From Thuidium tamariscinum (taxonomy: Eukaryota > Streptophyta > Bryopsida > Hypnales > Thuidiaceae), in NCBI GenBank assembly GCA_947034885.2, contig OX344750.2, positions 31,606,821-31,670,820 of the forward strand: a stretch of DNA of 64,000 bases, read 5' to 3'. Made by a program: the position numbers and the translations under genes. The notes below the pieces were generated by a model. That model ran no database searches. It was given only the letters and a program-made list of their open reading frames with translations, and was not told the origin of the DNA. Within the stretch, counting starts at the first letter, position 1. Each line of letters starts with the position of its first letter. Shown in pieces: positions 6,909 to 62,148 of the stretch.

Positions 6909-7833
6909 TTAAGCCATAACTACTTTTGACTATGTTTTCAGCAAAAACATTTTCAAACTACCATTTGTAGAACAAGTGCCAAATTTTAGAAGAAAAGCAT
7001 TTTGGGACACAAACAACCATAGGAACTTGTAGTACAATTGTTTGAAAAGATGTAGAAAAAATTCCAAAAATTTCTACCATACAAATTGCAAGATATTAGC
7101 ATTTGACCTAATAGAAATTCTTTTTTGACCTTGCAAAAAACCAAGCAATTGCACTTCACAAGCTCTCATTTGTATGAAAATTTGTTGACAATGGTGGTGC
7201 TTCATTGAATTCGGTCTTCAAGGCAAGTTGGATGCAAACTTGAAAATTTCCATATCATGTGGAATTGTACAACATATAAGAAAAAAATAGTATGTAGAAA
7301 GAACCAAAAAATGATCCAAAATACAACATTGTTGAGAACTTATTTATAAAATTGAAAAATGCCAATACCAAGGGTTGTAATCATGTTGTAATAAACAATC
7401 TACATCCTACAATATTTTATCAATAAAAATTAAAAATTGAATTAAACAATAGTTTATTGTAGATTAGCAAATGTATAAATGGCCACAAACAAAAACTTTG
7501 CATAACTTTTGTCTCATTCATCAAAATGAAATGATTTAAAGCTTTTGACCTATATATAAATATAGAAAATTAATTTCTATTTTTTTTTCAAAAGTGACTT
7601 TCAAAGAAACTTTTTGAATTGCATGGGTTGCCCAATGAGCAATGAAAATTACATACCATACAAAAACTTTCCAACCATGTAGTTAAAAGTTATGAAAATT
7701 GTTGTACCTTGAAAACACTCCTTTGGCACATTTCATGTGAAAATTTCAAAGAACAAAAATAAAAATTCCATTTGTAGTGGGCTACCCAATATCCCTATAG
7801 GCCAAAAACATATTTTGGTCCTTTAGCGGTTAA
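6909..7833 (-). mobile_element. TTAA-flanked piggyBac-like MITE, family A copy 1
   Basis: The 925-bp segment is bounded by TTAA at 6909-6912 and 7830-7833. Its right end reads, in reverse, TTAA-CCGCTAAAGGACC, close to the ends of the family copies at 27700 and 45843. The left end is more diverged, but the following GACTATGTTTTCA is the family subterminal word. The interior matches the other family A copies, for example the stretch around GATGTAGAAAAAATTCC. It has no coding capacity. The TTAA target and CCC-type terminus are established piggyBac hallmarks; the assignment is inferred from those and from the copy comparison. Confidence 0.7.
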
Positions 7834-7933
7834 ACATCAAAAATGGTACACCCCAACACCATAGCATACATTGAAGACCTAGCAAAATTCCGAACACTAG
7901 CAATGACACTTGTTCATCATTCTTGTCAAACTA

Positions 7934-8889
7934 TTAATGTCTAAAGGACCACTCAACTTTTTGAAATGGGGGACATAGTAATTTTGGTTAGGTCCATGCA
8001 ACTAGAGATTTTTAGGTTTGGGGCCAAAACCTTAATGAAAGGTGTAGACAAATAATGTCTTTCCTAAACACTAAAATTTAGGGGATTTGAAAATACAAGT
8101 CAAAAGTTATCACCTAATATGTTATTTTTTTTATAAATGGATAATTTTGGGCTTTGGACAAATCAAGATAATTCCCTTTCTTTAATAACAAAAATTTGAA
8201 ATTGGTTCTCTAGATTCATATATACATGAGAAGCTTTTGAATCATTCCATTTTAATCAATGAGTCAAAATTTATGAAGAGATTTTGTTTGTATACATTTA
8301 TGCACTTGCTAATCTACAATAAAAATTGAAGTCCTTTGTTTAATTCAATTTTTAATCTCTATTGAAAAAAGATCATAGGATGTAGATTGTTTATTACAAA
8401 ATTACAACCATTGGGGTTGGCATTTTTCAATTTTATAAATAAGTTCTGAGCAATATTGTATGTTGGATCATTTTTTGCTTTTTTCTACGTACTATTTTAT
8501 TCTTATATGTTGTACAATTCCAAATGATACGAGAATCTTCAAACTTGCATCCAACTTGCCTTGAACAATAAATTCCATTTAAGAACCATCATTTTTGAAA
8601 AAATTTCATACAAATATGAACTTTGCAAAGTATAGTTGTACAATGTTTTGCAAAGCCCAAAAGATATTTTTTTGTAAATTTGAAAGGTAATATTGTGCAT
8701 TTGTACAATCCTCATTGTAGAAATTTCTTGAAAATTTTTCTACATGTTCATAAGCCGACATTGTATACAACCCTATGGTTACATGTGTCTTAAGAATGTT
8801 TTATTTCCAAAATTTGGTACTTGTTCTAGAAATGGCAACTTTAGAGCGTTTTTGAGCATTTTCAATGAAAATATAGTAAAAGGATTTAA
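7934..8889 (+). mobile_element. TTAA-flanked piggyBac-like MITE, family A copy 2 (inverted relative to copy 1)
   Basis: The 956-bp segment runs from TTAA (7934-7937, followed by TGTCTAAAGGACC) to TTAA (8886-8889). Its right part (TTGGTACTTGTTCTAGAAATG) is the reverse complement of the left part of copy 1, so the two lie head to head about 100 bp apart. The 107-codon frame at 8744-9067 is noncoding element sequence running past its edge. Confidence 0.7.
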
Positions 8890-10861
8890 TGAGTTAATTA
8901 AAAGCACACACAATTGGGTGACTACAAGAAGCACTTGTACTATATTTTGCCTTCTTTATTTTTATCATTTTAGTATTTTTTGCATGTACTACAAGTCACC
9001 TTTGATACTTTTAAAAACATTGAATATGAAATTTGGATGGTGGTTGGATTTCAGATCTACAATATAAACAACTTTTGATGTTCGTCAACGGAAAAGCTAG
9101 TATAGATGGCATAACATAATTTGCCATCAAAAATAGTTTACATTGATAGATTAGAGGCACTATTGGCCTTGAACCAGTATTATTCAGTCATTTTTTATAT
9201 CCTTAAATACTATTTTTAGAAATTTATGTCCAATAATGAGATTTATTTATTTATTTGAAAAATTAGAAAATGCCCTTGAAAATTTTATTTAAAAAGTAGT
9301 CATTGTATTCAACTAAGAGCAAAGAAAGAAAATCAAGGCTAAAACAAAAAACAAATAATTAGTTCAATATAAACTCAATTGAAATAGAATATACTTTATG
9401 CCAATGCAAACCAAACTTGGAACATGTTTTTGGAAATTCCTCTCCTCAAGAGGTATATTTCTATTAGAAGAGCTAGCACACCAAATTTGGTTATGTAATT
9501 CTTCAAAAGAGGTACTTGATAGTACTAAAAAAAATGCCCAAACCATAAGTGTGATATATATTTAAATCCTATTGAATGAATTTTGAAAAAATTCAAAAAA
9601 TTCAAGTACATTTTCTATTACTGTACTATAGGAAGCTAATTTCTAAATTTCATATTCAATCAATCAATTTTGCAATACTTATGACACAAAACAACTTCTG
9701 CAATCTGTGTATGATAGAAAATAGGACAAGCACATCTTGCAATCACCCAACTTTTGAATTGCATTGGGAATGTTTGAATTTAGAGGTCTTATATGAAACA
9801 TTGCTCAGAAACTCACTTCTCCATATTTACCGCCCTTCCATTGCAAATGTTCTCATTCTTCTATGCACAAAAAACTTGGCTAAGAAACTTAACACCTCCG
9901 TATTCTAGTAGAAGATTCATTATGATTGAACCTTTAAACTCCATTCAAATTAGTATTATCTACATTTTTCTCTATATAAATTTTTTTGTCAACCACATGT
10001 ATGTCAACTTCTTACATTACCAATGGGAGTGGGTCTTAAATGATGTACAACAACATGCAGTAAAATATTGAAGTCATTGTGGCTCCAAAAAGAAGAATAG
10101 GCCATTTTTGGAGTGATTATCAAATACCACCTCAAAAATATTAGGGTGGTTATCTAATTGTGAAAATCATTTACTTCCAAACCATAATTGTTTTTTGCTT
10201 CACATTTTTTTATAATAATTGTAGTACATAAAAAATAGTATATTTGTTAATTTACATGTTTGCTCATTTGGAATCGTCACTCATTTTCAACGTAAGGTAG
10301 GAGCACCCAAATTGAACACTAGTCATCCATAGACATCTGGAAAAGAACCTAAATCCAAGTGCAAGTGGATTCAAAGAAGTTGTCATTCTTCCAAGGAGTG
10401 GCCAATCACATGCATGGGATTTAAGATTAGAGTGTCACCTTTGAATGTTTCCGTGCCAATTTTGGTGTCAGTCTAGTGCGCGCCCACAGTAGATGCATCT
10501 ACACAATGGTTTTCAAAAATTCATATTATATTCATACAAGCTCAGAAAAATATGAACCCAATTGTTTTGGTTTCATAAATCATTTCCTGACAAGCGCATC
10601 TAATCTTTTTCCCTACACAAGTATTGCATCTTTGGATCCAGGGGTAAGTGTCCATTTTGGCTGCTCCTACCTTATGTCACATGGACTGAAATTGAGCAAA
10701 GCATAGAATCAGGTTTCACAATCAAAGTACACCAGCTATTTAATACCCTTTGAATAACTCCATCAACTAATCATAAGTCAGCTCAAGGAAATGGGCTCGG
10801 ATAGAGTTCAAACTTCAAAGTGTTGGCTCCCTAGACCATTGGAACCATCCTATAAGTTAAC
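8890..10861. other. AT-rich intergenic DNA, nothing firm
   Basis: Short frames at 9576-10071 and 10476-10706 show no protein character. A 19-bp word (AGCTCAAGGAAATGGGCTC) near 10775 recurs in the leader of the NmrA-like gene near 12006, so part of this stretch may be an old duplicate of that leader. Confidence 0.45.
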
Positions 10862-11830
10862 TTAACCCCTCACCGCCCAAGAGGACCAAAAGTGTCCATG
10901 CAGTCAGACTCAAAGTGCTGTAACTTTTGCATCCAATGTCCAAATTCATTGAAACTTGTTGGAAAAGTTGCGCATTTTAATCTAGTTCTTATGGAAGAAA
11001 TTTCAAATCAATAAAAGACATATTGAGTTTTTGAGAGCCATTCAAAGTTCACAGGTTCATTTAGATGCAGCACACTGCATTGTGACTGCTGCAACTTTGG
11101 GGGATTGTATCTTTTTCATAAAATCTTTTTTTTTGATAGTATTTGTTGTGTTTTGTTCCTCTCAAGGTCTAGTTATTGTGCTAAATTTTTCATGCCAATC
11201 CAAGTTGTTTTGAATGTTTGGGAGCAATTCGAAGTTCAAAATCTAGACATTTTTGCATTTCAGTCAACTTTGGCGGCTCGTAACTTCTTCATACATGATT
11301 GCTTTTCAATAATATTTGTTGGAAAAGTTTCACTTACTAATCTATTTTGTGTGGCTAAAATTTCAGATCCATCTAAGACGTTTTGAGTGACTGAGAAGCA
11401 TTTTGGTAGAAGGAGCTTCAGCCACAGTTGTGATTTTTTCATCTTTTTTCACTGGTTTTTGACATTTCAAATCCATTTTTCAAACGAAATGAGTGATTTT
11501 TATGAATTTTTTTTCCATTGAAGTGTTTATATTATGGTTTTGAATCACTTTGTAGTTTAATGTTTTTTCATTGGAATTGGTTTAAAAATCCAATTTCACC
11601 TCCAAATGTGTTTTTAAGAAAATTTCAGCACCTTTTTTGAACACTAAAACATTATAATCTTTCAATCTATACGGTCAAATGACCCAAAATTTGTTCCACA
11701 CCATCTAAAAGATGCACACTACAATATTGTACGATTGAGATCTTCATACCTTACTCTAATTTTGAATTTTCAGACTTGCAAAGGCAGGCAGTTTTTAAGC
11801 ATGGTTGGACCTTGGGCGGTGAGGGGTTAA
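10862..11830. mobile_element. TTAA-flanked piggyBac-like MITE, family B, well-preserved ends
   Basis: The 969-bp element has TTAA at 10862-10865 and 11827-11830. The terminal inverted repeat CCCCTCACCGCCCAAG is exact at both ends (16 bp), and similarity runs on weakly (AGGACCAA versus GTCCAACC). A small GGAC...GTCC hairpin sits just inside the left end. The interior is AT-rich with no coding potential. A second, truncated family B copy ends at 15906. Ends this well matched suggest a fairly young insertion. Confidence 0.85.
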
Positions 11831-19818: not shown

Positions 19819-19865
19819 TTAACCCTTAACTGGGTCGACGTCCAAATATTGGACGATGTACAGAA
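19819..19865 (+). repeat. Left end of the 6.9-kb piggyBac element with subterminal hairpin
   Basis: TTAA, then CCCTTAACTGGGTCGAC, then the perfect hairpin GTCCAAATATTGGAC. Several other TTAA elements in the window also carry a short hairpin directly inside one end. Confidence 0.75.
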
Positions 19866-21674
19866 GGTTTCTGCCGAATGAGGAAGGCAACGTCTGTTTT
19901 TCATCCGTCCTTTTTTCAGAGTACACCTGGACGAGTGAAGCGCGTGTGCAAGGAAAGTGCAGCCTTGAAAAGCACGACCATATTTTTGGAAAAATAAGAG
20001 ACAGTGAGGGTGCCAAGAATAACGATAATTTTGGACTGCCCATTCATGGGTGCCGTGACTTCTTCGGAAATATCGGAACAGTACTTTCCCAGAAGGGTAG
20101 GGGCAGCTTGGTGTTTACCGCATACGTCAGTTGGGGCCACACCGCAGCCTGTGGAATACTAAAAAAATGGCGAGTAAGGATGCGCCACTCCGCTTGGACT
20201 CGAAGGGTGGGCCGCAAGGCAATTACGAATTCCAGGTGTCTCTAGCTTACAGGGATGTTCATATTAAAAATTCGCTTTTCCGGAATGCGGTGGCTACGTC
20301 TTCAATTCAGGCACTGAAGAACAAATGATGTACAATGAATCCGCAATGTCTGCGGGTACTTCTTATAGCTGACACTCCTATGTGGGGAGTGTACAATACT
20401 TCACAGAATGTTTTTTATGGAGCTTTTCCAGACTAGAATATTGCAGAAGCACAATCTCATAGCATTCTCTAGCAACGTGTGGCAAGTCTGCCTACAATGC
20501 TGGAGGCTACAGTTGAATCATGCATTCAATTTGTGGCACTGGCTGCACACAACAATTATGTCTTGTATGAAGATAATTTCTTGAAGCCGCCTTCAGCCTT
20601 CATGAACTCCTGCATTATCTACTTGCTGAGCACTCATACGACCTCAATAAAAGTCATTGCCCAGCATGTTCCACAATCACCTGAGCCCACACCATCTTCA
20701 CATGCAATTCCTACTGCGACTGAGACAGTGTGCCTTCCACTTCATGATTTCTTCCAGTTCATTAGTTCTTCCTTCTTTGTGAGCTCATAGCATTTGCACG
20801 GACGACCGGAGTAGTTCATGAGCGACTGTGCATGCGGAATTCTTGACGTGCATGGGCAGTCAGTGTTCTGTCAGAGCCTTCGTAATAGCCAACCATACTT
20901 GCTTGCTTCAGTGATCACATTGTCGACGACTGCGTTACCGATTACAAGAAGGGTTTCGAAGACTTCTGAGCTCAAGTACCGTAGTTTCATTGACAACGGA
21001 GCCGTTGTGCACTACGTCAGCAGTCCATGTTCGCATGCTCAGGTAATTCTCAATGCCGTCGTCACATACTTGACATTCCATATCGTATTCTCCAGCTACC
21101 GCATGCGATCACGTAACTAGGCATAGTGCAAGTCTACCGTTCAGTCAGCTTTGACAGTTTCCTGTCATTGCATGCAGCGCTGCATCCAAGCGTCCGCACT
21201 GTTGAAATACAGGCGAATTACCTTGTCGTCGTCACACTTTCCTCTCTACGTGTCTGCAGTCCTCGTCAAGATTGTGATGAAGGGATGAGGTATTCGTCCT
21301 TCGGTTCTCATGATGTCATCCACTGATGCGCAACCCTCCACTTTGCCTCAGATTCGGGAAACCATTCGACAATGGTGTGCGTCAGTAGCCGCCAGTGAAT
21401 CACAGACGCGCCAGATTCTAGGACTGCTTGACCGTCGACAACTTCTCAAACGCCCTCTGAAGCGTGGCATCAAGAAACGGGACACTCCACGGGGGCTGCG
21501 CTTTCTCTTTCGCCATCACTGCTCCAAAATACTCGGTTGAAAGGAACGCCGACCGGAAGGCCACCCCGAAGGATTTTCGGATGAGGTGAATCACGCGTTG
21601 CGTGTCCTTCTGTGGCCAGACGAATCTGCACCGCCGTGCATTTGCCGTCTTTGCGTGGCTGCGGCCTCTTTTAA
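19866..21674 (+). other. piggyBac element leader region, no assigned gene
   Basis: GC-moderate sequence belonging to the element. Frames at 19856-20245, 20131-20328 (with ATG-led MASKDAPLRLDSKGG) and 21310-21540 (QIRETIRQWCASVAASESQTRQ as landmark) are short and unrecognised. The last could be an upstream exon of the transposase, but no splice sites were settled. Confidence 0.4.
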
Positions 21675-21719
21675 TTGAAGTGTCATCCCAAGCAGCTGCA
21701 GACGACGAATTCGTGCAGC

Positions 21720-24700
21720 ATGTCGCGCCGACCGAATCCCACTAAGCCCGGCTCGGACTGCAGCGACGGAAGTCGACACATAACGAGATCAGCGACACTA
21801 CGCATGGCACTCATTGCAGCAGTCGATGAAGCTGAGTCGAGACGGAAGCGGCAGCTCCTAACTTCTGAGACTGGAGCTCCCGTGCTCACAAAGAGGGCAC
21901 GCATGGAACACTTCGAGGCGGACGACAAGGGAAGAGATGCTACTCGCATGTTGTCCGGACCGCTGATGAATACTGCTATTTATGAGCACGGCAGTTGCAG
22001 CCATCACGCTCCGCCAGCGCCGCTCAACCACGTTGCAACACATCCTGCCGTCAACACTATGACTTCAGCTCCTGACCGCATTGTCCTGCCCATGTCCGAT
22101 GCCCCCATTCCAGTGCGTTTCAGACTTCATCGTAGCGTCGATGCTGCTCGGGCCGAGTCCTCCCAAAGCGGATCCGACAACGCGCTGGGTCTGGTAGTGC
22201 ACTCCTACGTGAAACTGGAAACCAGTGAACTGCACTACGTCGTCCTTCTCCAAACCGGCAAGTACGTCGACATTCCATGTGGCGAAGTGGAGCCCCTGTC
22301 GCTACTCATGAATGACGACTGTCCGGATATGTCGACGCCAACCTCTCACCGTGCGCAACGGAGCCCAGTCCTCACTACGTGCATGCCGTCACCTCATGGT
22401 GATCGAAGCTTCACTTCAGTAGAGGCACTGCAGTCATTCGTGCCTCTCTCGGTCGACAACAACGGACGCTCCAGTGGAGATGACGATCAAAACTCTTGGC
22501 AGAGTTGGTATGACTTCGACGCCTTCTCGCAACGCACTGTAGAAGATGACTCCCAGTACCGCATTCCTGAGCCGCCGGACTCTTTCCCAGGTGACTGCGG
22601 GAACTTCACGTTCCGGAGGCCTCTGCTACCTGAGGAAGACATGTACCGCAACGGCGGGGCCATGAATACGGATTCGGTGGCCGCGGTACCGTACTCTCCG
22701 GGACCAACTGCTCCACTTCCGATCGCTGCGGTTCCGGACTGCAAGCAGAGCATCCATTCGAAAGACGTGCATTGTCAACAAGTCGTGCCCATTTCCAGTG
22801 ATGTCGAGAACATCGACCCCAACGTTCATAGATTCAAGAGGGCGGAACCCACTTCCTCCACGGAAGTGCCCGTTGGTCTGGGTAATTCCGTGCATACGGC
22901 ATTGCTGTCTGCCCAGCGAAGCAGCCAAACGCCATCTGTCAATGCTAGCGGTCGTTTTTCTGCTGTCGCACCCGTTTCCGTATTTGAACGAGTCGTGGAG
23001 GCTTTCGATACTCGTGATGAACGCACACGCGGGACGACAGTCCTCCCCAGCGTGTAGAGCCGCTGTTCCGGGCAGGAGGAACTTCATCGCGTTCCCAGTG
23101 CGGCTCCTTCCGTGAATGATCTGCGCAATCAAGAGAGGACGGATCGCCAAGAAGCACAGCGGCCGATTCTCCCAGTTCGTGAGGCAGAATTGCCGGGCGG
23201 TCACGCGTGGGATGCAGCGCCAGCATTGGGCGCATCACCGTCGACTGATGGAGTCCGGGACAACGACGGCGGCGGACGCCAACCGCCAATGCAGCAACGC
23301 AGTGGACGTCCTACACGAGTGACGGCTGGAGCAGCGCGGATGGCATTCCAAACTGAATTTGCGGAGCACACGTGGACAACTAATCACTCATCGTACTGTA
23401 CTGAGCGTCCTGCATTCGGAGGACCACTTGGAGGGCCATCGTTTCCAATTCATCGCATGCCCACGAAAACATCGCTATTCAGCCGTTTCTGGTCGGACAG
23501 TACGCTCCAACAAATCTGCGACGAGACTAACAGATACGCCAGTCAAGTGCATCCCGACACTCATCTGCCGCTTGGCGGAGGAAGGTGGTGGCGTCTAACG
23601 AAGACTGAGCTCAAGGCCTTCATCGCAGTCAATATGTTGATGGGCATCAAGCGGCTCCCAAGCCATAGGAGTTACTGGAACCATGCCAACCAGTTCCTCT
23701 ATTGCCCGAGCGTGTCATCCATAATGACTTGTCGTCGATACGAGGATATTACCCGCTGCCTCCATGTCGCGGATGACCGTGTACATGGGCTACCAGTAGA
23801 GGATTACGAAATTGATAGACTGAAGAAGATGCGGTGGTTGGTCTCGGAGATGAGGAATCGCTTCAAAGCAAACTGGAACTTGTTCCAGGAGGTCACGGTG
23901 GACTAAACAATGATTCCGTACAAGGGGAAGTACTGCCCAATGCAGCAGTACATGCCCCGTAAACCTACACGCTGGGGAGTGAAAGTGTGGTGCATCGCTG
24001 ATGCACGACATAAGTACATCTATGACTTCGAAATTTACACTGGATCACTTTGTCGAGATGGCAGGGCTCGAGTTCTTGCAGGCGGTCCGAAGTCACCTCA
24101 TGAGGTGGTTATGCACTTGATGCTTGGATTGCATGGTCACTCTCATATTGTGTGCACTGATAACTTCTTTATCTCAGTGAAACTGTTGTTGGAGTTGAAG
24201 TCTCTTGGCACTTATGGAGTAGGAACTGTCCGGAGTAATCGTGTTGGACTACCTCGGGCTCTGGCAAACACGAAGGCCTTGTCCAGGGATCCGCAGGGCA
24301 TGATGTATTGGAGGATGCATGAGAGCCGGGACATCAGTTGCGTGGTCTTCATTGACCGGAAGCCCGTTCTGCTCCTTTTGACGTACTACACCCCCATTCC
24401 AGCGCCGCTCCTACCGTGGCCAACAGTTCCGCGTCGACTGGATGGCCGAGTCAGGGACTTGCCGACTAGCCCAGTGCATAAGGCATACACGGAGTTTATG
24501 CGTGGAGTGGACGTCGCTGACCATTTGAGGGGTAACTACTCTTGTCAAACTCGCAGCCACAAGTGGTGGCATAAAGTTTTCCTATATCTCGTCGACACGT
24601 CTCTTGTGAATGCTTTCATACTTCACTAGAATGCGGCTGAGCAGCTTGGGAAGGGTCCGCAATCTCATTTGCATTTCCAACTGAAGATGGCTGAGGAATT

Positions 24701-24911
24701 GAGTAGGCCCTGGTCTCTTCAACAAGGAGCCGTGTCTGTGTTTCGTTTGGCAACTCCTGGAGTGCATGGACTTGTTCGGAGTGTCAGGCGCAGGAAATGT
24801 CGCTTCTGCATGGGAAGAACAAGGACCAACTTGATGTGTCCACAATGCGGTGGTGTCTTTCTACATCTAGGAGCCTGTTTCCAGAGGACTCACTACGCTC
24901 TGAGAAGGTGA
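21720..24911 (+). pseudogene. piggyBac transposase (DDE_Tnp_1_7 type) with three in-frame stops
   Basis: One reading frame covers the whole gene (ATG at 21720), interrupted only by TAG at 23055-23057, TAA at 23904-23906 and TAG at 24627-24629. The first ~450 codons are Ser/Pro/charged and not diagnostic. From about 23470 the piggyBac core appears: FSRFWSDSTLQQICDETNRY, ELKAFIAVNMLMGI and DDRVHGL; then the first catalytic Asp in VTVD just before the TAA, followed by TMIPYKGKY; the second in VCTDNFFIS (about 24,155); the third in MRGVDVADHLRGNY (about 24,500). The C-terminus (about 24,790-24,890) has the cysteine-rich cross-brace zinc domain, CRFC...CPQCGG...C..H. The TAA falls immediately after the first catalytic residue, where family members usually have Glu. 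The enzyme class cuts and pastes at TTAA. The stops make the gene non-functional unless read through; no frameshift was seen. Confidence 0.9.
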
Positions 24912-25415
24912 AGAGTCGAAGTCACGTTTAGCTTCGTGCACTGTGGACGTGGGGACGTCGATGTGAATTTGTACAAAAGGGTCGCAGGTGTGCAGACGTT
25001 GGAGGCAGAAGAGCTTGAGGTTCCAAACAAACGCCACGTCAGGTGTTGTTCATGTACAGAGCATGTATAGAAGGGAATAAGGCTAGGATAATCGATGGTG
25101 CAGTAGTTTCGTTTGCACCCTCGTTGATGTTCGTGCTACTGGCAGTACTTGTCTTTGTTGAGATATACTATGTAGACTACAAGGTACTATGAGGCTCCTC
25201 CGTATTGTATGGAGCGGCATGTGGAATTTGAGCCTTTGGCATGTCGTGACGTGAGGAGTGAGTCCAGCGCATTTTGGGTGAAATGACAGCGCCTTCTGTA
25301 CAGTTTTGAAGTAAAGAAGAATTTGTATGTTTTGTAAACCGGAGTTGCTGTCTCACAGTGTGTAGAGGTTGGAAGTGTCAACAACCTGTGCAACATAATT
25401 TTACTTTTATGAAAA

Positions 25416-25569
25416 TGTGCTTCAGGTGTGCTTGAGGTGACCTCAAGCACACCTCAAGCACAAGAAATTATTCCCCATTCAATTTGGAATTAAATTTCTT
25501 ATTCTTCTATTTTTATCAAATTGTGCTTGAGGTGTGCTTGAGATCACCTCAAGCACACCTCAAGCACAC
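25416..25569. repeat. Pair of 47-bp palindromes
   Basis: Two near-perfect palindromes, 25416-25462 (one mismatch) and about 25522-25569, are built from the unit CTTGAGGTGTG repeated and mirrored around CTTGAGGTGACCTCAAG or CTTGAGATCACCTCAAG. About 60 bp of AT-rich DNA separates them. They sit inside the AT-rich insertion in the piggyBac element. They could be the two ends of a tiny foldback element or a structure-prone repeat. Confidence 0.8.
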
Positions 25570-25779
25570 TTTCTATGTTTAACTTTTTATTTTGAATTAA
25601 ATTTTTAAAACTTCTAATATTTGAATGATTAATTTATTAGTCTCTTAAAGATTTATTTTTCCTACATAGCTTTCATTCATTCTTGTAAACCACTGTCATA
25701 CATGGGATTCCACCTTGGTATCCTAAAACCAATTTGTACTCTCTTAAGTATAGGCCTAAAAAGTTTAGATTTTTGAAGG

Positions 25780-25982
25780 GGATTTAGAGGGGGGCTACCT
25801 TAGAAAAAAATAGAAAAAAAATCTACTAATATAAGGCACCCTTCTTTTTTTACAATGGCTAGTTGTCCTTTATGGACATGGTAATTTATTTTCAATAATT
25901 GTCAAAAATTTAGGTCGCCCCAATTAAAAATACCCTTCATTTGTTCGCACGCTAACATCTAAAAAATGGGGAGTGCACCCCC
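25780..25982 (-). mobile_element. One-ended remnant related to the hAT-like MITE
   Basis: The right end, read in reverse, is CCCGGGGGGTGCACTCCCC. It resembles the terminus of the 18644-18941 MITE, and downstream similarity includes GGTATTTTTA followed by a G-rich run. A matching left end was not found, so the copy looks truncated. Confidence 0.45.
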
Positions 25983-25984
25983 CG

Positions 25985-26738
25985 GGTGAATGCCGTGCGC
26001 TAGTGACGAGCAATACACATTTCAGCGATTCGCGATGCGGCAGTGACAAAATTGTGAGGTGCTCATGTCGCTGTGTGAGCATTCCTTTCCCACTCAAGTG
26101 AAGCAGCACATTCCGTCTACTGCAGTCGGTAAGATTTTCAACTTTAAAAAAAATGGGTTCATCAGAAATGGTCAGACGGTTCTGGCGTCAGCAAAGCTAT
26201 CGCTAGTGGATGGGGCAGCGGGGAAAGGAACAACGCATCCATGGGGCAGGCGCAACGATGTCCTGAAATTTGCATGTCGGTTACGTCCCGACTGAGTCCT
26301 GGAACTGCCCCAGTGGTCAATGCGAAGCTTTCTGCGGTGACTACCACGCATTGCAAGCTGCACAAATTGAAGAGGACTTCGAATTTCTCTTCTCCAAGAC
26401 TTCGTCTGTGTTTAGAACTTCATGCTCTGTATGCTCATTATTTTTCGTGAATTTCGTGCACCACACATGCGCTTCGAAGTGGACGTCGAAAGCAGTCGGG
26501 AGCCACTGCCCGCCATAGTCAACGGCCAGTCTCATGCAGTCAAACGTTAAAATCGTTACATCCACTCAGTAATTCAAGGTATTCCACTTGTACGTGACAT
26601 CCTCAGTTCATGGTTTTGAAGATCCTACGGTTGGAAGGTGCGCAAATTCAGTCCAGCCTTCAATTTCGGCCCTCTAAGGATTTGCCATTTTCAGTGTGCT
26701 TCGTGACCAGTCCATGAGAGCGACCATTAAAGGGTTAA
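25985..26738 (+). other. Right-hand noncoding part of the 6.9-kb piggyBac element
   Basis: GC-richer sequence resumes after the AT-rich insertion and runs to the right TTAA end. No gene recognised; frames at 26059-26565 overlap on both strands and have no domain character. Confidence 0.5.
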
Positions 26739-27470: not shown

Positions 27471-29190
27471 TGTGCCATGTACCGTTGCCATAGTCAAAAT
27501 CAAAGTAAAAGTATTTTCCTAATTTTTTGAACTATAAATAACTTTAAAATTCAATATCTTTCCCACCATGAGTCAAATCATTACAAAACCAAGCCCATAC
27601 ACCCGTCCTCGCCGAGGGCTTTCCGACGATACTAAGAATGCCCCTGGGGGACTCACGGTCCAAGAGATTTCAACGTGACAAACAAACAAACAGCCTGTCT
27701 TAACCCCTAAAGGACCAACATGCGTTTTTTGGCAACATAGCAATTTTGGGCAGGTACATGTGAATAGAGATATGCATGTTTTGGACTAAAATTTTAATAG
27801 AATGTGGGGACGAGGAGTATCTTTCATATGTGCAAATTTCATGACATTTGGAAATATGAGTCAAAAGTTATTGCATAATATGTAGTTTGTTTCTCAACTC
27901 GGGCAGTCTGGGCAGATCTGAAAAAATCACTTTTTTAAGAAATAAAAATTTGAAATTTGTTCTTCAGATTTATATGTACTCAAAAAGCTTTGAATCATTG
28001 CATTTTAATAGTTGAAATGAAAGTTATGAGGCTTTTTAGTTTGCGGGCAGTTATGAAATTCCTACACCAAAAAAAACTTTGAAGTCCTTCATTTTACTGA
28101 AATTTCAATATTTTTGAAAAAAAATAATGCTATTAAATGTAGATTGTTTATTACAACAATTCAACCATTTGGATTGGAGTTTTTTAATTTTATAACTAAT
28201 TTACTCACAATTTAGTATTTTGAATCATTCCCTACTTCTTTCTACTTACTATATTTTTCCTATGTGTTGTACAACTCCAAATGATCTGAAATTTTCATGT
28301 ATGTAGCCAACTTTCTGTGAAGAATGAATCCAAAAAAGAACAATCATTTTGGACATTTTTTCATAATGATCTGACCTTGTGAAGTGCAGCTGCCCGGTTT
28401 TTCGTAGGACCAAAAAAAGGATTTTTGCCACTTCAAACGCTAATATCTTGCAATCTACATGGTGGAAATTTCTGAAATTTTTCCCACATATTCTCAAATT
28501 GAAGTACTGCAAGATCCTACAGTTACATATGTCAAAAATGATATTTAAAAAGAAATTGATACTTGTACTAGAAATGGCAGTTTTGGAGCATTTTTGGTGA
28601 GAATATAGTCAAGGAACTTTAGGGGTTAAGGTATAGACTAGTGTGCCTTGTGTCCATGCCATAGTCAAAATCAAAGTAAAAGTATTTTCCTAATTTTTTG
28701 ATTCATAAATAACTTCAAAATTCAATATCTTTTTGACCATAGGTCCAAATGTCACAAGACCAAGCACGTGCACCCCTCCTCGCCAAGGGCTTTCCGACAA
28801 TACCAAAAACGTGACCGAGGGACTCACAGTCCAGGAGATCTCAATGTAACAAATAAACAAACAAACAAAACAAAACAAACAAACAGCCTATCTTAAGGTA
28901 TAGACTAGTGTGCCTTGTGTCGATGCCACAATCAAAATCAAAGTAAAAGTATTTTTCTAATTTTTTGGTTTATAAATAACTTAGAAATTCAATATCTTTC
29001 CAACCATAGGTCCAAATACCACGAAACCAAGCTCATACACCCCTCCTCGCCAAGGGCTTTTTGAGGATACCAAGAACGCTATTGGGAGACCTACGATCAC
29101 GGAGATCTCAACGTAACAAACAAACAAAACAAAACAAAACAAAACAAACAGCCTGTCTTAAGGTATAGGTATACTTAAGGTATAGACTAG
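27471..29190 (+). repeat. 1720-bp block, copy 1 of a near-perfect tandem duplication
   Basis: It holds one interrupted unit plus two intact units. It appears identical to 29191-30910 base for base, apart from two differences in the first ~15 bases. Three separate open frames repeat with exactly the same translation at +1720. Confidence 0.9.
27700..28629 (+). mobile_element. TTAA-flanked piggyBac-like MITE, family A, inside the array
   Basis: TTAA at 27700-27703 followed by CCCCTAAAGGACC; right end ACTTTAGGGG followed by TTAA at 28626-28629. The target is seen unoccupied in a sister unit (CTATCTTAAGGTATAG near 28,890), which shows that exactly TTAA was duplicated on insertion. The inserted length is 926 bp. 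Noncoding. Confidence 0.92.
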
Positions 29191-30910
29191 TGTGCCATGT
29201 GCCATTGCCATAGTCAAAATCAAAGTAAAAGTATTTTCCTAATTTTTTGAACTATAAATAACTTTAAAATTCAATATCTTTCCCACCATGAGTCAAATCA
29301 TTACAAAACCAAGCCCATACACCCGTCCTCGCCGAGGGCTTTCCGACGATACTAAGAATGCCCCTGGGGGACTCACGGTCCAAGAGATTTCAACGTGACA
29401 AACAAACAAACAGCCTGTCTTAACCCCTAAAGGACCAACATGCGTTTTTTGGCAACATAGCAATTTTGGGCAGGTACATGTGAATAGAGATATGCATGTT
29501 TTGGACTAAAATTTTAATAGAATGTGGGGACGAGGAGTATCTTTCATATGTGCAAATTTCATGACATTTGGAAATATGAGTCAAAAGTTATTGCATAATA
29601 TGTAGTTTGTTTCTCAACTCGGGCAGTCTGGGCAGATCTGAAAAAATCACTTTTTTAAGAAATAAAAATTTGAAATTTGTTCTTCAGATTTATATGTACT
29701 CAAAAAGCTTTGAATCATTGCATTTTAATAGTTGAAATGAAAGTTATGAGGCTTTTTAGTTTGCGGGCAGTTATGAAATTCCTACACCAAAAAAAACTTT
29801 GAAGTCCTTCATTTTACTGAAATTTCAATATTTTTGAAAAAAAATAATGCTATTAAATGTAGATTGTTTATTACAACAATTCAACCATTTGGATTGGAGT
29901 TTTTTAATTTTATAACTAATTTACTCACAATTTAGTATTTTGAATCATTCCCTACTTCTTTCTACTTACTATATTTTTCCTATGTGTTGTACAACTCCAA
30001 ATGATCTGAAATTTTCATGTATGTAGCCAACTTTCTGTGAAGAATGAATCCAAAAAAGAACAATCATTTTGGACATTTTTTCATAATGATCTGACCTTGT
30101 GAAGTGCAGCTGCCCGGTTTTTCGTAGGACCAAAAAAAGGATTTTTGCCACTTCAAACGCTAATATCTTGCAATCTACATGGTGGAAATTTCTGAAATTT
30201 TTCCCACATATTCTCAAATTGAAGTACTGCAAGATCCTACAGTTACATATGTCAAAAATGATATTTAAAAAGAAATTGATACTTGTACTAGAAATGGCAG
30301 TTTTGGAGCATTTTTGGTGAGAATATAGTCAAGGAACTTTAGGGGTTAAGGTATAGACTAGTGTGCCTTGTGTCCATGCCATAGTCAAAATCAAAGTAAA
30401 AGTATTTTCCTAATTTTTTGATTCATAAATAACTTCAAAATTCAATATCTTTTTGACCATAGGTCCAAATGTCACAAGACCAAGCACGTGCACCCCTCCT
30501 CGCCAAGGGCTTTCCGACAATACCAAAAACGTGACCGAGGGACTCACAGTCCAGGAGATCTCAATGTAACAAATAAACAAACAAACAAAACAAAACAAAC
30601 AAACAGCCTATCTTAAGGTATAGACTAGTGTGCCTTGTGTCGATGCCACAATCAAAATCAAAGTAAAAGTATTTTTCTAATTTTTTGGTTTATAAATAAC
30701 TTAGAAATTCAATATCTTTCCAACCATAGGTCCAAATACCACGAAACCAAGCTCATACACCCCTCCTCGCCAAGGGCTTTTTGAGGATACCAAGAACGCT
30801 ATTGGGAGACCTACGATCACGGAGATCTCAACGTAACAAACAAACAAAACAAAACAAAACAAAACAAACAGCCTGTCTTAAGGTATAGGTATACTTAAGG
30901 TATAGACTAG
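29191..30910 (+). repeat. 1720-bp block, copy 2 of the tandem duplication
   Basis: Second copy of the block. The unit that follows (30911-31150) has clearly diverged, so the duplication ends at the unit boundary, as expected for unequal crossing-over between array units. Confidence 0.9.
29420..30349 (+). mobile_element. TTAA-flanked piggyBac-like MITE, family A, duplicated copy
   Basis: Same insertion as 27700-28629, copied with the 1720-bp block and apparently identical. It is not an independent insertion. Confidence 0.9.
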
Positions 30911-37059: not shown

Positions 37060-37820
37060 TTAATCCCTAATAATTCAAAGGGAATGTACTTTCAAATTAA
37101 TTAGTCCAAAACTACCAAGAATTTGAACAATTGGTTTGCTCATTTATTCTAAAGATTAGAAAGAATGTAACAAAAGACCTCAAAGTTCACATTGAAAGTC
37201 AACACCTCATTTAAAAAAAACATTATTTGATCAAAAAATTTAGCAGATATTTAAATTTGAAGTTTTATTTGAGTCATTGGAAAAATAAGGCAAGACGGAC
37301 TCAATTGAAGAAATATATTTTAATGAGAATATTTTGAAATGATGACCTTTTTGCACTCATTGAAAGAAAACATTGTTGGGTATGTTTATCTAAAATTTCA
37401 CAAGATTCCAAATATTTTATTATTTATAGTAGAGCTTGTAATGCATTGTAGTCACTAAAATGAGAGTAGTGTTTGTAAAGAAAACAAAAATGGGACACTT
37501 GTCTTTTCTTTGAGCTCCTTGGATCTATCCTTTTCGAAGGTGAGCAACAATTGCATTAGTTGACCGAGTTTTTAGTCCATAATTATGTCCAAACTGAACT
37601 CAAGAGATTGAGTTGTAAACCATACTATACCATTCAACTTAATACATCCCGCAATACAAAGTTTTACTTAGAATTAGATGAAACTATCACCAATTGGATT
37701 TTTAATGCAATCTATTTTCTAGAAATAATATTTATTTCTTACAAATTCAAAATTTGAAAATGGGTAGTTCAAAAAGCAAGGGTAGCAACCAAAAATGGTT
37801 GCTTGGATCATTAGGGTTAA
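37060..37820. mobile_element. Candidate TTAA element with subterminal hairpin
   Basis: TTAA at 37060-37063 and 37817-37820; inner ends TCCCTAATAATTCAA and, reversed, CCCTAATGATCCAA. Inside the right end is the hairpin GCAACC...GGTTGC. It fits the window's pattern for TTAA elements; no internal similarity to families A or B was noticed. Confidence 0.5.
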
Positions 37821-41849: not shown

Positions 41850-42448
41850 TTAATCCCTAAATTCCTAAAGTCTATTTCTCATCAATAAACAATGAAAACT
41901 ACCATTTCTATTGTAAAGAGAGAGAAAGTTAATTTTTTTCGAATCTAATGATAGGATAATACACTAGGAAGACTATAATAAAAATGTGTGTAAGAAATTT
42001 CAGAAACTTTGACCATGTAATTTTCTTTACTTTAAATGCAAATATCTCACAATTAATTTATCTTGCACCTTGTTTTCAAAGACTCTATACCTACTTGCAA
42101 ACTAAAATTTCTCATAACTTTCATCTTATTAATCCAAATGGAATGATTCATAGCTTCTTACGTTTGTATAAGCCTAAAGTTTCAATTTCAATTTTTTATC
42201 TAAAAGAATTTTTTTCTACATTTTTTTTTGAATTGCCCAAATTGCTTGTTGAGCAATGAAAATGACATATTATGCAATAATTTTTAACTATGCATTCAAA
42301 ATTTATAAAATCTTTTGGGATTTAAAGCTATTCCTTAGAACTTATTGTGTAAGAATTTTCAAAGAAAAGAAATAAGAACTCCATCTAAAGTAAATTGTCT
42401 AAAATCGCTATGTTGCCAAAAATTGAAGCTTGGTCTTCTAGGGATTAA
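41850..42448 (-). mobile_element. TTAA-flanked piggyBac-like MITE, family A, internally shortened
   Basis: TTAA at 41850-41853 (then TCCCTAAATTCC) and 42445-42448 (reversed TCCCTAGAAGACC). The right end carries the family word GCTATGTTGCCAAAAA, the left part AACTACCATTTCTA. At 599 bp it lacks part of the ~925-bp family length. Confidence 0.65.
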
Positions 42449-44489: not shown

Positions 44490-45843
44490 TTAATTCCTTA
44501 AAGACTACAATTATGTTTCCACCCAAACTGCTCTAAAATTGTCATTTCTAGGACAGCTACCAAATTTTAGAAAAAAAAACATTTTCTGACATACATAACT
44601 GCAAGATCTTTTAGTGAACTAGTTCATAACATTCAGTAGCACTCTGCAGGACTGCCTTCCCAAGGACGAAATCGTGTGGAATATCCCACATCATTCCATC
44701 CAAAAGGATGAAATGGTGTGGAATATTCCACACCAAATCAGTAACTTTTATTCAGTAGCAAGGCAAAGAAGCAACGCGTCAAAGTTTCAACTTGGAATTC
44801 GTGGATGACTCTGCTTGCTTGGAAAAGGCAAAGTCTCTTCTTGCTACTGAATGTTATGTTTGGGAAGATGTAGAAAAAATTTCAGAAATTTCCACCATGT
44901 AGATTGCAAGATAGTAGTGTTTGAAGTTACAAAAATCATTTTTTTCCATTGTGAAAATCCGGGCAACTGCACTTTAGAAGGCCACATTTGTATGAAAAAA
45001 TGTCCAAAATGGTTCAAAATCTTTGGATTCATTCTCCAATTCATGTTGGCTACATGTTTGAAAATTTTCATATCATTTGGAATTGTACAACATGCAAAAA
45101 AAATAGTAAGTAGAAAAAGGTAGAAAATGATTCAAAACACAAAAATGGTAACAATTTATTTATCTTTACAAGTAGAAAGCTTTGAATCTTTTCATTTTCG
45201 ATCAATTTATCAAAAGTTATGAGGATTTTCAATTTGAAGTAGCTTGTGGCTAGTTATAGAATCTCTATACTACAAAAAAAGGTTTGAAATCCTTTATTTA
45301 ATTCGATTTTTAAAATTTTTGGAAAAAAATAAAAGAAATAGATATAGATTTTTATTACAAGATTTTAACCATTGGGATTGGCATTTTTCAATTCCATAAA
45401 TTAATTGTTTATAATTTTTGTATTTTAGCTCATTTTCTACTTCTTTCTACTTACTATTTTTTTCCTATATGTTGTGTAATTTCAAATGATTTGAAATTTT
45501 TTGAAAATGTAGACAACTTGCCTTTAAGGATGAATTCAAAGTGGTGAAACCAATTTGAACTTTTTTTAACTCTTATAAATGTGACCTTGTGAAGTGAAGC
45601 TGCCCAAATTTTCGTAGTGGTAAAAAAAGGCTTTTTGTACCTTCAAACACTAAAATCTTGCAATCTACATGGTGGGAAATTCTGAGATTTTTTCCTCATC
45701 CTTTCAAAGAATCTTACAACAAGATCTAACAATTATATGTGTCAAAAAACAATTTTGTTTCTAAGTTTAGATATATATATATTAGAAGTGGTAGTTTTGG
45801 AGCGGTTTTAGTGAAAACATAGTCATGGTCCTTTAGGGGTTAA
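44490..45843 (-). mobile_element. TTAA-flanked piggyBac-like MITE, family A, with nested MITE
   Basis: TTAA at 44490-44493 and 45840-45843; right end reversed CCCCTAAAGGACCATGAC, left end TTCCTTAAAGACTACAA. The two ends resemble each other for tens of bases (ATTATGTTTCCACCCAAACTG versus ACTATGTTTTCACTAAAACCG as landmarks). Total 1354 bp, of which 44625-44858 is a later insertion. Confidence 0.75.
44625..44858. mobile_element. 234-bp nested MITE with 17-bp exact inverted ends
   Basis: Both ends are CATAACATTCAGTAGCA when read inward. Comparison with the uninterrupted family A sequence shows this block is extra. Inside are two near copies of GATGAAATGGTGTGGAATAT-type sequence, one containing the palindrome GTGTGGAATATTCCACAC. 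The target duplication is unclear, so the superfamily is unassigned. Confidence 0.75.
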
Positions 45844-46601: not shown

Positions 46602-47336
46602 TTAACCCTTAAACGACGCCGAAGCCATTCCGTGGCATTTGGATGACTGCAAGGGACCAGAAGAGGAGCTGAACAGTAGTTTTTTCATCCGTATTTTTTT
46701 TAATGCCCCTGCATGTTGAGTTACAAAGAGTGTCCAACTGAGTTTTTTTGTCTGGCTGATGTTTGATTTCATGTGGTTGAGAAGTAATTACCAAAAACGG
46801 ATGGCAAAATTTGTTGTTTTAGTGTATTTTGAGAAATTGAGTAAATTTAAAATTTCTCCTTGAAAATGACATTTTCTGAATTTGAGCCCAACTAACAAAA
46901 TGAAGGTCCTCACTTCTAGTTTCTACTCCAATTGGAATTTTGGAAAAATTTGTAAAATCGAATGTTCTATAGCAATTTGAACTTTGGCTGCATTTTTAAT
47001 GTCCACTGCAGCCTAGAAATAGGTGTACACGGAAGTTGAGTTTACACCATAATGTTTGTCACTATAATGTACACACATGGTGAAATTTTCAGATTTTTTG
47101 AGATTATTTCTATTTTCTATTATTTTTTCTTCACTTTTTCTTCAAAATCTGTCATGAAAATCAATTTTCCTCAAAAAAATCTGAAATTTCTGTGAAATAT
47201 AGAAGAGATGTAATTTCATCTCTGAAAAATAAAAATAAAATTTTTCATACATGACTGGTTCTAAAATGGTAACAAATTGTGTGACGGGAGAGGAGTCTTC
47301 AAACCAGTGGGCATAGGCCCGTCGTTTAGGGGTTAA
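46602..47336. mobile_element. TTAA-flanked piggyBac-like MITE, family C
   Basis: TTAA at 46602-46605 and 47333-47336; terminal repeats CCCTTAAACGACG and, reversed, CCCCTAAACGACG. Both ends carry a hairpin directly inside: GCCATTCCGTGGC on the left and GGGCCTATGCCC on the right (reversed). 735 bp, noncoding. Confidence 0.82.
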
Positions 47337-52946: not shown

Positions 52947-52949
52947 TGC

Positions 52950-53593: not shown

Positions 53594-54429
53594 TTAACTC
53601 CTAAGTGCCAATCAACCATATATGGTCGATTTGAAATTTTAGGCTCATTATGGACTAGGTAGTTAAGGACTTATGCCCGTTTTAAAAAATTTAATGGGCA
53701 ATTCTTAAGGTTAACTATTGAAAACATTCATTTTTTACTGAAAAATGGACAAATATGAATTAGAAAGGTTCTCAAAGGCATATACATACCAATAGTTAAA
53801 GAAAGAAGCTTGTAAATTGACTTGATTTTTCCGGCTTTGAGGGAAGTTTAACAATTTTTTTTATATAAGATCTAAGAAATTGTACTCATCCATTTGCTTT
53901 ACCATTGATCCCAATGGAAAGAATAAAGTGTTTTTGTGTTTTTTACCATTGAAAATTTGAACATGCAAGTACTAATTTGGAGTTATTTGTCATTTCTACT
54001 TTTAAATGAAATTGCATTTCAACAATTGCAACTTTTCAAGGTATATTTTGCATTGAATTCGATAGCTATTCATGTAAAATTAAGTTTTTTGAAAGTGCAC
54101 TCTAGCATCCTAAGACTATTTGTAGTTGTTTAGGGTATATGCAAAATGCATTCTAAAACATTGTGGCGAGAGGCATCATACTAAAAATTAGAAAATGTAC
54201 ATTTTCCTTGCTATAATCTCACAATTACTATGCAATTTTTCACTCAAAATTGGTTTGCATTCTAAAAAACAAGTTCTTCAAACATCTGTATGGTTGGATT
54301 TTGAAAAGGAAACAATTTACTTCATTGGGGATATTTATAAACCCATGCTCTTTCTTCTTAGTCAAGTATATATTGGGAAGGCTTGGGCATTTAGAAATGA
54401 AGATGGAGCTCTAGTGCCATAAGCGCAAT

Positions 54430-60455: not shown

Positions 60456-61790
60456 ATGGCTAACCTTCTGGAATTATGTTCCCGTTGTGATCACAAATTC
60501 AAAAGTAGGTCATACAAATATTGTCCTATGTGTGGTGCTCGACGTTTACCGTTTGTAGTGGAGGGTTCCTCAACGGACGAAAGAGAAGTAGAAACTATTG
60601 TAGAGAGTCATAGGTCACATGCTCTTCCCATTCCTACATATGAACAAATCTATATTCATCATCCCAAGACCTTGAAAGAAGAAGGCAAGTTGTACGGGAA
60701 GAAATTTCTTATGGCATATTACCTTGACGAGTACTACAAGTTCCTAAACAACCAGTTGAAGGCAAAACTCTGGTTGCAGGAACACAGTTTAACAAATCAA
60801 AACGTTCAAGAGAGTCGAGTGCAATGGAGGACCATGTTGAAGGCAATTTGTGAGGCAAGGTCAATAGAAATGGAGTTGTTGGATTTTGGAAAAGTCCAAA
60901 TACCTTGGCGACCAAAAGAAATTTACAACTACTTGTTGGAGTATACTGAGAACCTGAGGAAGTATGAAAAAAGCAAACACATGAAGACAATAGAGGTAAG
61001 CTTTTTTGGATAACTTTTTTTTATATTTTTCTGTGATTGTAGATTTTGTATATAATTGTCAATCATAAGACAAACATTTTGTAAAAAATTAAAATAATAA
61101 ACTAGGAATCTGTTGCATTTTGGTGTCATTGCATAAATCTTTGTTTATGTGTAATTGTTCATTTTGAATATTGGATGTCTTTTACCTTATCCGTTTGTGG
61201 CTTTTGAAATGTATTTTCTATGATGAAATTTGTAGAGGACTCCTGGAGAAGTGGGCAATCCTGAAATTCAAGAACGCTTATTACAATTGGAAGCTGTAGG
61301 AACTCAAACTATAAGGGTATTGAATTTTCAATGATCACTGTGTATTAATCATGTCATCTTCATTTTATTTCAGTGTATGCTTCTTTGTTTTAATAATTTC
61401 TAATGATGGGATGTTTGGCAGACTGAAATTGAGGACAATGTACAAGAGCCACCTTTAGAACCTCAAGAAGAACTGGAGCCACAACGTTAAAGGCGAAAAA
61501 CAAGGAAGGCAATAGAAGGAGATTTCCAACGCAAGAGGAAGGCTAAAGGAAAGGCTAAAGGAAAGGCTCCCGCAGAAGATGTTGAACACGTAGATGACAT
61601 AGCATTGAAAGATGCTGAAACAACCATCCTTCGTCATTATCAATACAGTAGAGTCGACGACATAGCAAGTCATATAGATGCAGCTATTGACCAACTGAAT
61701 GTTATGGAGGGAACAAATCGATACAACAAATGGAAGATATATGAATACCGCAAGAAGGTCATGAAGTTAGCTCACAAGTTAAATAATTGA
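60456..61790 (+). pseudogene. Zinc-ribbon protein gene, three exons, one in-frame stop
   Basis: Exon 1 (60456-60995, 180 codons) begins MANLLELCSRCDHKFKS and has a C4 zinc ribbon: CSRC and CPMC, 17 residues apart (residues 8-29). The rest is helical and rich in Lys/Glu (YLDEYYKFLNNQL, WLQEHSLTNQ). Exon 2 (61236-61316) and exon 3 (from 61422) are joined by GT-AG introns that keep the frame. Exon 3 meets TAA at 61488-61490 after PLEPQEELEPQR, but the same frame then stays open for 99 codons to a stop at 61788-61790: a basic stretch (RRKTRK, KRKAKGKAKGKA; likely nuclear) and a helical tail (SHIDAAIDQLNVMEG). So the stop is probably a nonsense change, or the short 229-residue form is used. Family not recognised; CACTA elements often encode a second DNA-binding protein, which is my best guess. 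Confidence 0.6.
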
Positions 61791-61886
61791 GAATTAATAG
61801 ATGTTTGAGCTTAGTATTCTGTAATTCAAGACCACTTATAAGTATGGATATCGTTTGGATTGCAAGGTATTGTCATTAGAAACGAA

Positions 61887-62148
61887 GAAGCAAGTTTGTT
61901 CACATTGCCTTTGTTACATTTTTTGCTTCATATCTTCTTAAATTAACATATTTGCACTATTGATTTTGATTACCTATATTGAAATCAATTTGAAAATTCA
62001 ATTGAGATTCTACAAAACGACAGTCAGTTAAAAATTAATTAATTTACATTCATTAAATAATTGTTAAATAGAGGAAAAATCAAGAGTAACGTACAAGCTA
62101 AATTTCAAAATTGACCCAAAAGTGGTCAACCGGTCACTAAAGGGTTAA
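61887..62148 (+). repeat. Direct repeat R5, copy 2, ending in a TTAA terminus with hairpin
   Basis: Partner of 57885-58115, followed by TTGACC...GGTCAA, CCGGTCACTAAAGGG and TTAA. It begins about 95 bp after the zinc-ribbon frame ends. Confidence 0.7.

Follow-up and report, generated by a model that had tools for sequence, protein, structure and literature searches.

The moss Thuidium tamariscinum harbors many families of piggyBac transposons, and one member lies within the 64,000-nucleotide stretch analyzed here (the window; G000:C2:31606821-31670820, in a genome of 363 Mb on 19 contigs). Just inside the left terminal repeat of this element stands a palindrome, and the left ends of relatives at other loci (those compared with the window are numbered L003, L011, L012, etc.) carry palindromes at nearly the same place but with different letters. 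These are very probably not folded hairpins but double-stranded, family-specific sites for a dimer of the transposase carboxyl-terminal cysteine-rich domain (CRD), with the dyad near base pair (bp) 25 and with letters that change along with the CRD recognition loop. (Base numbering starts at the TTAA, whereas bp numbering starts after it; thus, base 29 is bp 25, and bases 21-37 are bp 17-33.) The dyad position, its restriction to one end, the compensation between arms, a statistical covariation with the CRD, and the homology to known systems are all observed in the moss elements.

The left end would accordingly comprise two parts. Bases 1-20 (TTAA plus 16 bp), common to the right end, would be read by the catalytic core, as in the Trichoplusia ni piggyBac element; bases 21-37, the palindrome, present in the left end only, would be bound as duplex by a CRD dimer, one domain per half-site. 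The outer half-site bases differ among families, and would move together with the loop between the second and third cysteines of the CRD. The dyad would remain near bp 25 because the protein geometry is fixed, and the outer bases would change in step on both arms because the same domain reads both halves. By analogy with the piggyBac and piggyBat structures, the division of labor between core and CRD may be accompanied by dimer binding, DNA bending, and a role in synapsis.

This model bears on the question of how a transposase stays faithful to its own ends in a genome full of its relatives. The many families, together with one recent burst, serve as a natural mutagenesis experiment in which CRD loops can be connected with DNA half-sites. 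They make piggyBac CRD specificity directly testable, could yield transposon pairs that ignore each other, for use in genome work, and document a plant genome rich in piggyBac elements. The window's own transposase-bearing element has the following parts:

19819..26738, + strand: piggyBac element of about 6.9 kb, with a transposase gene inside and TTAACCC-type tips on both sides
19839..19855, + strand: left-end palindrome CGTCCA-AATAT-TGGACG, the proposed CRD-dimer site; dyad at base 29, 6 of 6 pairs
23058..24908, + strand: transposase core (DDE_Tnp_1_7) and carboxyl-terminal CRD, in three open pieces (23058-23903, 23907-24626, and 24630-24908)
26719..26738, - strand: right end of the element, with no palindrome at base 29

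The transposase gene is broken, as stops divide its three open pieces, and no second copy of the element was found among the loci compared.

A palindrome in the left end

Twenty-two left ends were compared: 21 from other loci, plus that of the window (L051 yielded no left end and was excluded). Those of L031, L033, L034, L038, L041, L048, L049, L050, and L052 were chosen by TTAACCC tip, family likeness, or a looser repeat match; L042 and L044 are included in every dyad count. For each candidate center, the dyad score counts the Watson-Crick pairs formed by bases 3 to 8 positions away on either side, with a maximum of 6. At base 29 the mean is 4.68 of 6 pairs, against a mean of 1.52 (standard deviation 0.33, maximum 2.32) at other whole-number centers and a maximum of 2.82 (at 19.5) at half-number centers. 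At least five pairs form at base 29 in 15 of the 22. A stricter subset, consisting of 12 left ends identified through their terminal repeats (no more than 1 mismatch in 12, with a CC, CT, or TC tip) plus that of the window, gives essentially the same picture: 4.54 pairs at base 29, versus 1.53 at other centers (maximum 2.69).

Choice of ends does not account for this peak. Among 72 TTAACCC tips taken without choice from the DNA examined (80 distinct tips minus near-identical ones), 16 reach at least 5 of 6 pairs at base 29, one of them being a simple AT repeat (31400); other centers average 0.85 tips, with a maximum of 5, and four control tip patterns give 0, 1, 0, and 0 tips. Contiguous stems of at least 6 pairs within bases 5-60 occur in 12 of the 22 left ends, compared with a mean of 1.0 and a maximum of 4 in 200 shuffles. 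Thus, the excess of subterminal stems over shuffled ends, on which the first-pass annotation of this DNA had staked its proposal of a terminal hairpin class, is borne out for left ends.

Right ends are different. In the set of 19 (that of L038 was taken from L011, and that of L034 from L003), none has five or more pairs at base 29. Stems of at least 6 pairs in bases 5-60 were found in 0 of 18 (shuffle mean 0.7), a set in which one right end was mis-assigned, and in 0 of 19 after correction. Within an element, the two ends (19 pairs) share a mean of 82% identity over bases 1-20, TTAA included, and 23% over bases 21-60; the former are the terminal inverted repeats. The left-end 17-mer matches 9.84 letters in its own right end versus 9.86 in the right ends of other elements, and it was not found in the first 200 bp of the right end.

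Nor does the left end appear to hold a second site. No second enriched dyad was detected in the first 190 bases of the 22 left ends, so an inner palindrome like those of piggyBat was rejected. No second copy of the 17-mer was found in the 17 left ends tested (best matches, 7-10 of 17 letters), although a diverged site could be missed. Each element therefore carries, as far as found, a single palindrome, in its left end only. A right-end palindrome, first suggested by GGGCCTATGCCC at 47336, was likewise rejected; GGGCCTATGCCC had been offered as an example of the hairpin class, but it belongs to a right end.

Separately, one group of right ends (L031, L032, L041, L048, L011:181, L003:160, and window 47336) shares by eye a motif that is roughly GGRCYKRTNACCGTGG. 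It sits at bases 17-33, where the left end has its palindrome.

The palindrome spans bases 21-37 and mostly reads N4-CA, about five A/T-rich bases, then TG-N4; the spacer (bases 27-31) is 81% A/T. Its inner pairs are near-constant: 25-33 is C-G in 20 of the 22 left ends, and 26-32 is A-T in 16 and C-G in 2. Its outer pairs are not: 24-34 is C-G, A-T, or G-C; 23-35 is G-C, A-T, or T-A; and 22-36 takes all four forms. Changes in the arms are compensated, as had been anticipated for a conserved shape. In 14 left ends that share less than 70% identity, 62 of 84 cells are paired, versus a mean of 39.3 with right arms shuffled (p ≤ 0.00005); in 11 that share less than 60%, 45 of 66 are paired, versus 29.7 (p ≤ 0.0003).

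Exact genome-wide counts were made for a few arm combinations. GACCA with TGGTC occurs 433 times in register and CGCCA with TGGCG 258 times, these matches being family copies rather than independent events. One base off register (+1; the N15 spacing control), GACCA with TGGTC occurs 3 times. The two exchanged combinations counted are virtually absent: GACCA with TGGCG occurs 0 times, and GGACA with TGGTC once. The reversed-pattern control is 0 for every count.

The cysteine-rich domain and alternative explanations

The CRD was readable in all 19 elements examined, with some irregularities: L037 lacks the third cysteine; the fifth cysteine is histidine in L047 and the window copy; and stops precede the CRD in L044 and the window copy. 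Across 18 elements (L037 is absent, since a CRD lacking the third cysteine missed the search pattern), CRD identity correlates with half-site identity after core identity is removed (partial Mantel test by permutation: r = 0.37, p = 0.0026). The loop between the second and third cysteines varies by family: mostly R-T-N with half-sites ending in CCA, K with ACA, and V-M-N with GCA. Palindrome half-sites and CRD loops thus appear, from comparison of sequences, to change together across families.

A single loop residue, five before the third cysteine, captures most of this pattern. Its pairings with base 24 are R-C in 14 elements, K-A in 4, V-G in 2, and K-C in 1, so that 20 of 21 informative elements fit, one of them (L050) ambiguously; L042 was left out, as its palindrome is unreadable. 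The K-A combination is found in two distant clades (L032 and L036). Predictions for three elements, fixed before their CRDs were seen, all came out. In the alignment this residue corresponds to E545 of piggyBat (numbered with an inferred offset of 6), which, together with R543, is reported to contact palindrome bases (PMC11707139). The first-pass annotation had suggested that each hairpin co-evolves with its own transposase, and this part of its proposal gains support from the arm compensation, the partial correlation, and, within the limits given below, the predictions.

The strongest competing explanation concerns this last step only. The palindrome would still be the CRD site, as we propose, but the correlation between CRD and half-site would reflect relatedness alone. 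This is a serious possibility, if somewhat the less probable one. Core identity by itself correlates with half-site identity (r = 0.67), and independent contrasts are few. On the other side, the partial correlation persists once core identity is taken into account, the covarying residue aligns with a known piggyBat DNA contact, and K-A occurs in two distant clades.

A bolder claim is that the covariation constitutes a readable code: the residue five before the third cysteine (R, K, or V) would set base 24 (C, A, or G), with one left-end site per family. Under such a code, numerous transposition systems, blind to one another, could live side by side with their gene-less passengers, and exchange of CRD loops could redirect them. 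We put this forward tentatively, and would not wager on it at even odds. Only two (non-R versus R) or three (K versus not-K) independent pairs exist on the core tree, which places significance out of reach; the residue-base rule is therefore a lead and not a proven code.

Several further observations weigh against the model, in whole or in part. Fewer than five pairs form at base 29 in 7 of the 22 left ends. L042 and L044 adjoin good transposases yet have no clear palindrome; L037, L047, and L050 pair better at 28, 28.5, and 31, respectively; at base 29, L036 and L048 form 4 of 6 pairs; and several window ends have no dyad or a decayed one. The large genome counts, as noted, are swollen by family copies. 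As for the code, L044 (K with C) violates it, and two of the three predictions concern members of groups that had been used before. The third, L050 (K with A), fits only if read at center 29, where 4 of 6 pairs form, and not at 31, where all 6 do. The position "five before the third cysteine" was settled after the data had been seen. The predicted position, "third after the second cysteine", coincides with it in the window's loop and wherever the loop has seven residues; in L037 and L045, whose loops are long, the two differ. Finally, the predicted transposase structure is of modest quality (mean pLDDT 61.5).

A different view of the palindrome itself, and the one first suggested for this window, is that the transposase recognizes a fold, a hairpin or cruciform at the element's end, whose shape is kept while its sequence is free. 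Compensated variation in the arms is what a fold demands. Nevertheless, we judge this explanation very unlikely. A free sequence is at odds with the near-constant C-G at pair 25-33 and the inner CA/TG, and with half-site letters that covary with the CRD; the dyad is nearly fixed in position and is missing from all 19 right ends; the spacer is A/T-rich, as in a bent, protein-bound minor groove; and known relatives are reported to bind the site as duplex DNA (PMC7351741, PMC11707139). Together, the near-fixed dyad, its confinement to the left end, the constant inner CA/TG, and the A/T-rich spacer argue for a protein dimer on duplex DNA and leave recognition of a terminal fold unsupported.

Alternatively, the palindrome might be an operator or promoter for a host or element regulator acting near the left end. 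Palindromic operators are common, and the palindrome does lie on the 5' flank of the transposase gene. This too has little chance of being correct: the palindrome is kept in the gene-less short element 46602-47336 and its copies, its position equals that of the known CRD site, and it covaries with the CRD. The remaining explanation, that short palindromes common in A/T-rich DNA were picked out by eye, can safely be set aside, for although about 1 in 22 shuffled left ends has such a stem and one unselected positive is an AT repeat, the fixed position already contradicts it, as do the 12 of 22 stem-bearing left ends, the control tips without excess, and the 433 in-register against 3 off-register matches.

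The model of a CRD dimer on duplex DNA draws on two well-studied relatives. In T. ni piggyBac, core domains are reported to bind the first 16 bp, and a CRD dimer to bind bp 17-33, a palindrome centered on bp 25 with an A-tract (PMC7351741). For piggyBat, from Myotis lucifugus, the left end is described as bending around bp 25 under the CRD dimer, and the right end as lacking CRD sites (PMC11707139, PMC13405395). A differential binding loop in the core is also named for the piggyBat group (PMC13405395).

By sequence and fold, the solved structures nearest the plant transposases are piggyBat and, narrowly behind, piggyBac; Foldseek matches both. The plant CRD A1 profile aligns with the piggyBat CRD through the cysteine/histidine layout up to and including GAC-x4-H, with a weak score of 5.8 bits, and this alignment extends further with piggyBat than with T. 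ni piggyBac; a C1-like CRD topology, as in the piggyBat fold group, is a possibility. The moss elements share with piggyBat a palindrome centered near bp 25 in the left end alone, and with T. ni piggyBac the TTAA target, the DDD core, and a left-end palindrome at bp 17-33 centered on bp 25 (PMC7351741). They differ from both. T. ni piggyBac carries the same palindrome on both ends, the plant elements only on the left; the left end of piggyBat contains three core-plus-palindrome units, that of the plant elements, as far as found, one palindrome; and, unlike in piggyBat, plant CRD loops and half-sites vary widely inside one genome.

The superfamily, the TTAA target, and the CRD-dimer site are thus already known. 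What is new relative to T. ni piggyBac and piggyBat, as far as found, is the single left-end palindrome per element and the breadth of half-site diversity in one genome. A literature search of limited depth turned up no published account of such single-site plant piggyBac families, and the one listing of piggyBac in a plant that it yielded is a fern repeat table; no mention of piggyBac was found in PMC12550479, and in PMC10619864 only the word "piggybacking" turned up. Plant DNA is familiar ground for short elements that lack genes but have terminal inverted repeats, the miniature inverted-repeat transposable elements (MITEs) of the Stowaway, Tourist, and Harbinger types. The elements described here differ from these in their TTAA boundary, their piggyBac-type tips, and the ends that they have in common with elements bearing a piggyBac transposase.

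piggyBac families in the moss genome

A Pfam search identified at least 116 genome matches to the piggyBac transposase domain (PF13843, DDE_Tnp_1_7) above the curated cut-off, among 659 candidates, and long open frames are present at many of them. The genome also has 22 matches to the LOB domain, all above that family's cut-off, which marks it as a plant; LOB genes are characteristic of land plants and their algal relatives. When 31 transposases (30 of the piggyBac genome matches plus the window copy) are grouped at 5% protein distance, 16 clusters result. The window's two matching transposase pieces have E values of 2.4e-26 and 7.7e-38, compared with 1.1e-80 for the best whole protein elsewhere, and the DDD triad (D214, D319, and D435) is invariant in all 11 aligned transposases. 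With a DDE_Tnp_1_7 domain, TTAA boundaries, CCY inverted repeats, and a CRD, these families belong to the piggyBac superfamily, as the first-pass annotation had suggested. Seamless excision through a TTAA hairpin intermediate is a further trait of this superfamily.

One family has moved very recently. The 11 copies at L012-L022, on C1, C2, C5, C8, and C9 of G000, are identical across 3984 bp save at two sites. They remain alike through AGGGTTAA and then continue into unrelated flanks, all 11 ending at TTAA on the right. This abrupt passage from identity to divergence establishes where the element ends on the right and that its target is TTAA, and indicates very recent movement: a burst within the plant, by elements that are possibly mobile today. 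The transposase frames of these copies are open. In other families, alignment of the window to the compared loci reveals left boundaries common to copies as well.

Some transposases have amino-terminal extensions of about 330-520 residues before the DDE domain: L031:3050-6076 (- strand), L032:4560-7028 (+ strand), and L036:3076-5499 (- strand). The window likewise has a 460-residue frame (21675-23054) ahead of its DDE domain. A Pfam search of the extensions in L031, L032, and L036 and of the window frame gave zero matches. At two loci, L038 (near oriented base 5980) and L041:7068/7073, a transposase-bearing element has a short element of the 46602 type almost abutting its right end.

Other elements and features of the window

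TTAACCC-type tips occur in the window in forward orientation at 10862, 19819, 27700, 29420, and 46602, and in inverted orientation at 11830, 15906, 26738, 28629, 30349, 37820, 45843, 47336, and 62148. In addition to the element at 19819, the following features were delineated:

46602..47336, + strand: non-autonomous piggyBac element of 735 bp; left end at 46602, right end at 47336
46622..46638, + strand: left-end palindrome with GCCA-TTCCG-TGGC; dyad at base 29, 5 of 6 pairs
47287..47336, - strand: right end carrying GGGCCTATGCCC; a stem of at least 6 pairs is seen in 0 of 19 right ends compared elsewhere
53594..54401, + strand: internally deleted relative of the transposase-bearing L047; left end kept, right tip degenerate
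53610..53631, + strand: left-end palindrome around CAACCA-TATA-TGGTCG; dyad at 27.5, one arm mismatch
37060..37820, - strand: probable non-autonomous element; left end at 37820, right end at 37060, the two ends tentatively paired
37785..37802, - strand: left-end palindrome GCAACCA-TTTT-TGGTTGC; dyad at 27.5
62111..62129, - strand: left-end palindrome TTGACC..GGTCAA of the end with tip 62148; dyad at base 29
10862..11830, + strand: non-autonomous element; its left-end palindrome, GGAC..GTCC, has partly decayed and forms 4 of 6 pairs at 29
27700..28629, + strand: non-autonomous element of a poor-dyad family; matches L041:1745-793
29420..30349, + strand: tandem duplicate of the 27700 element; matches L041:1745-793
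6909..7833, - strand: 27700-type element in diverged form, with its right end at 6909; no preserved dyad
7934..8900, + strand: second diverged 27700-type copy, in opposite orientation; no preserved dyad, outer boundary approximate
44490..45843, strand not assigned: related element, with long inverted repeats but no dyad; the tip at 45843 is of right-end type
41850..42448, - strand: diverged 27700-type fragment with left-end type tip at 42448; clear dyad absent, 41850 boundary without copy support

Copies elsewhere support many of these boundaries, for which the first-pass annotation had wanted multi-copy evidence. The 46602-47336 element aligns end to end with L041:7807-7073 at 82% identity and with the same boundaries. 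The start at 53594 coincides exactly with the left-end start of L047 (L047:1651), and its half-site class is that of L047 and L039. The start at 10862 matches copy starts in L038, L040, and L003, and a second window copy has its right end at 15906. L041 also supports both 27700-28629 and 29420-30349, which look like one insertion duplicated in tandem with a spacing of 1720; L042 is a transposase-bearing element with a left end similar to 27700. No copy of 37060..37820 was found among the loci compared, and no partner end was found for the left-end tip 62148.

The list of TTAA ends with CCC tips originally drawn up for this window can thus be kept in part: 10862, 19819, 27700, 29420, and 46602 hold, whereas the boundary at 41850 lacks a copy and 31397 shows no sign of an element end. 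The hairpins reported near these tips divide similarly. A palindrome is present at 19819, 46602, 53594, 37820 (the other end of the "37060" segment), and 62148, and is partly decayed at 10862; no preserved dyad is found at 6909, 7934, 27700/29420, 41850, or 44490, which are right ends, decayed ends, or dyad-poor ends.

The candidate at 31397 was rejected: there is a hairpin, but no sign of an element end, and a simple AT repeat lies at 31400. Nearby, an inverted repeat of 97 bases at 31502-31697, its arms 98% complementary and separated by a gap of 2 bases, could form a near-perfect long hairpin; it stands about 110 bases from a (TAATAATATA)n array. Within the 19819..26738 element, 3' of the transposase, nested palindromic CTTGAGGTGTGCTTGAG repeats occupy 25411-25573.

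Two gene-like regions also lie in the window. Four successive open frames at 49551-53021 (- strand) resemble one interrupted gene; a Pfam search with three of the four gave zero matches. An NmrA-like NAD(P)-binding gene occupies 12312-13391, and its start fragment (MAQSEGIRSHPKLI) recurs in inverted orientation 22 kb away, at 34610-34936.

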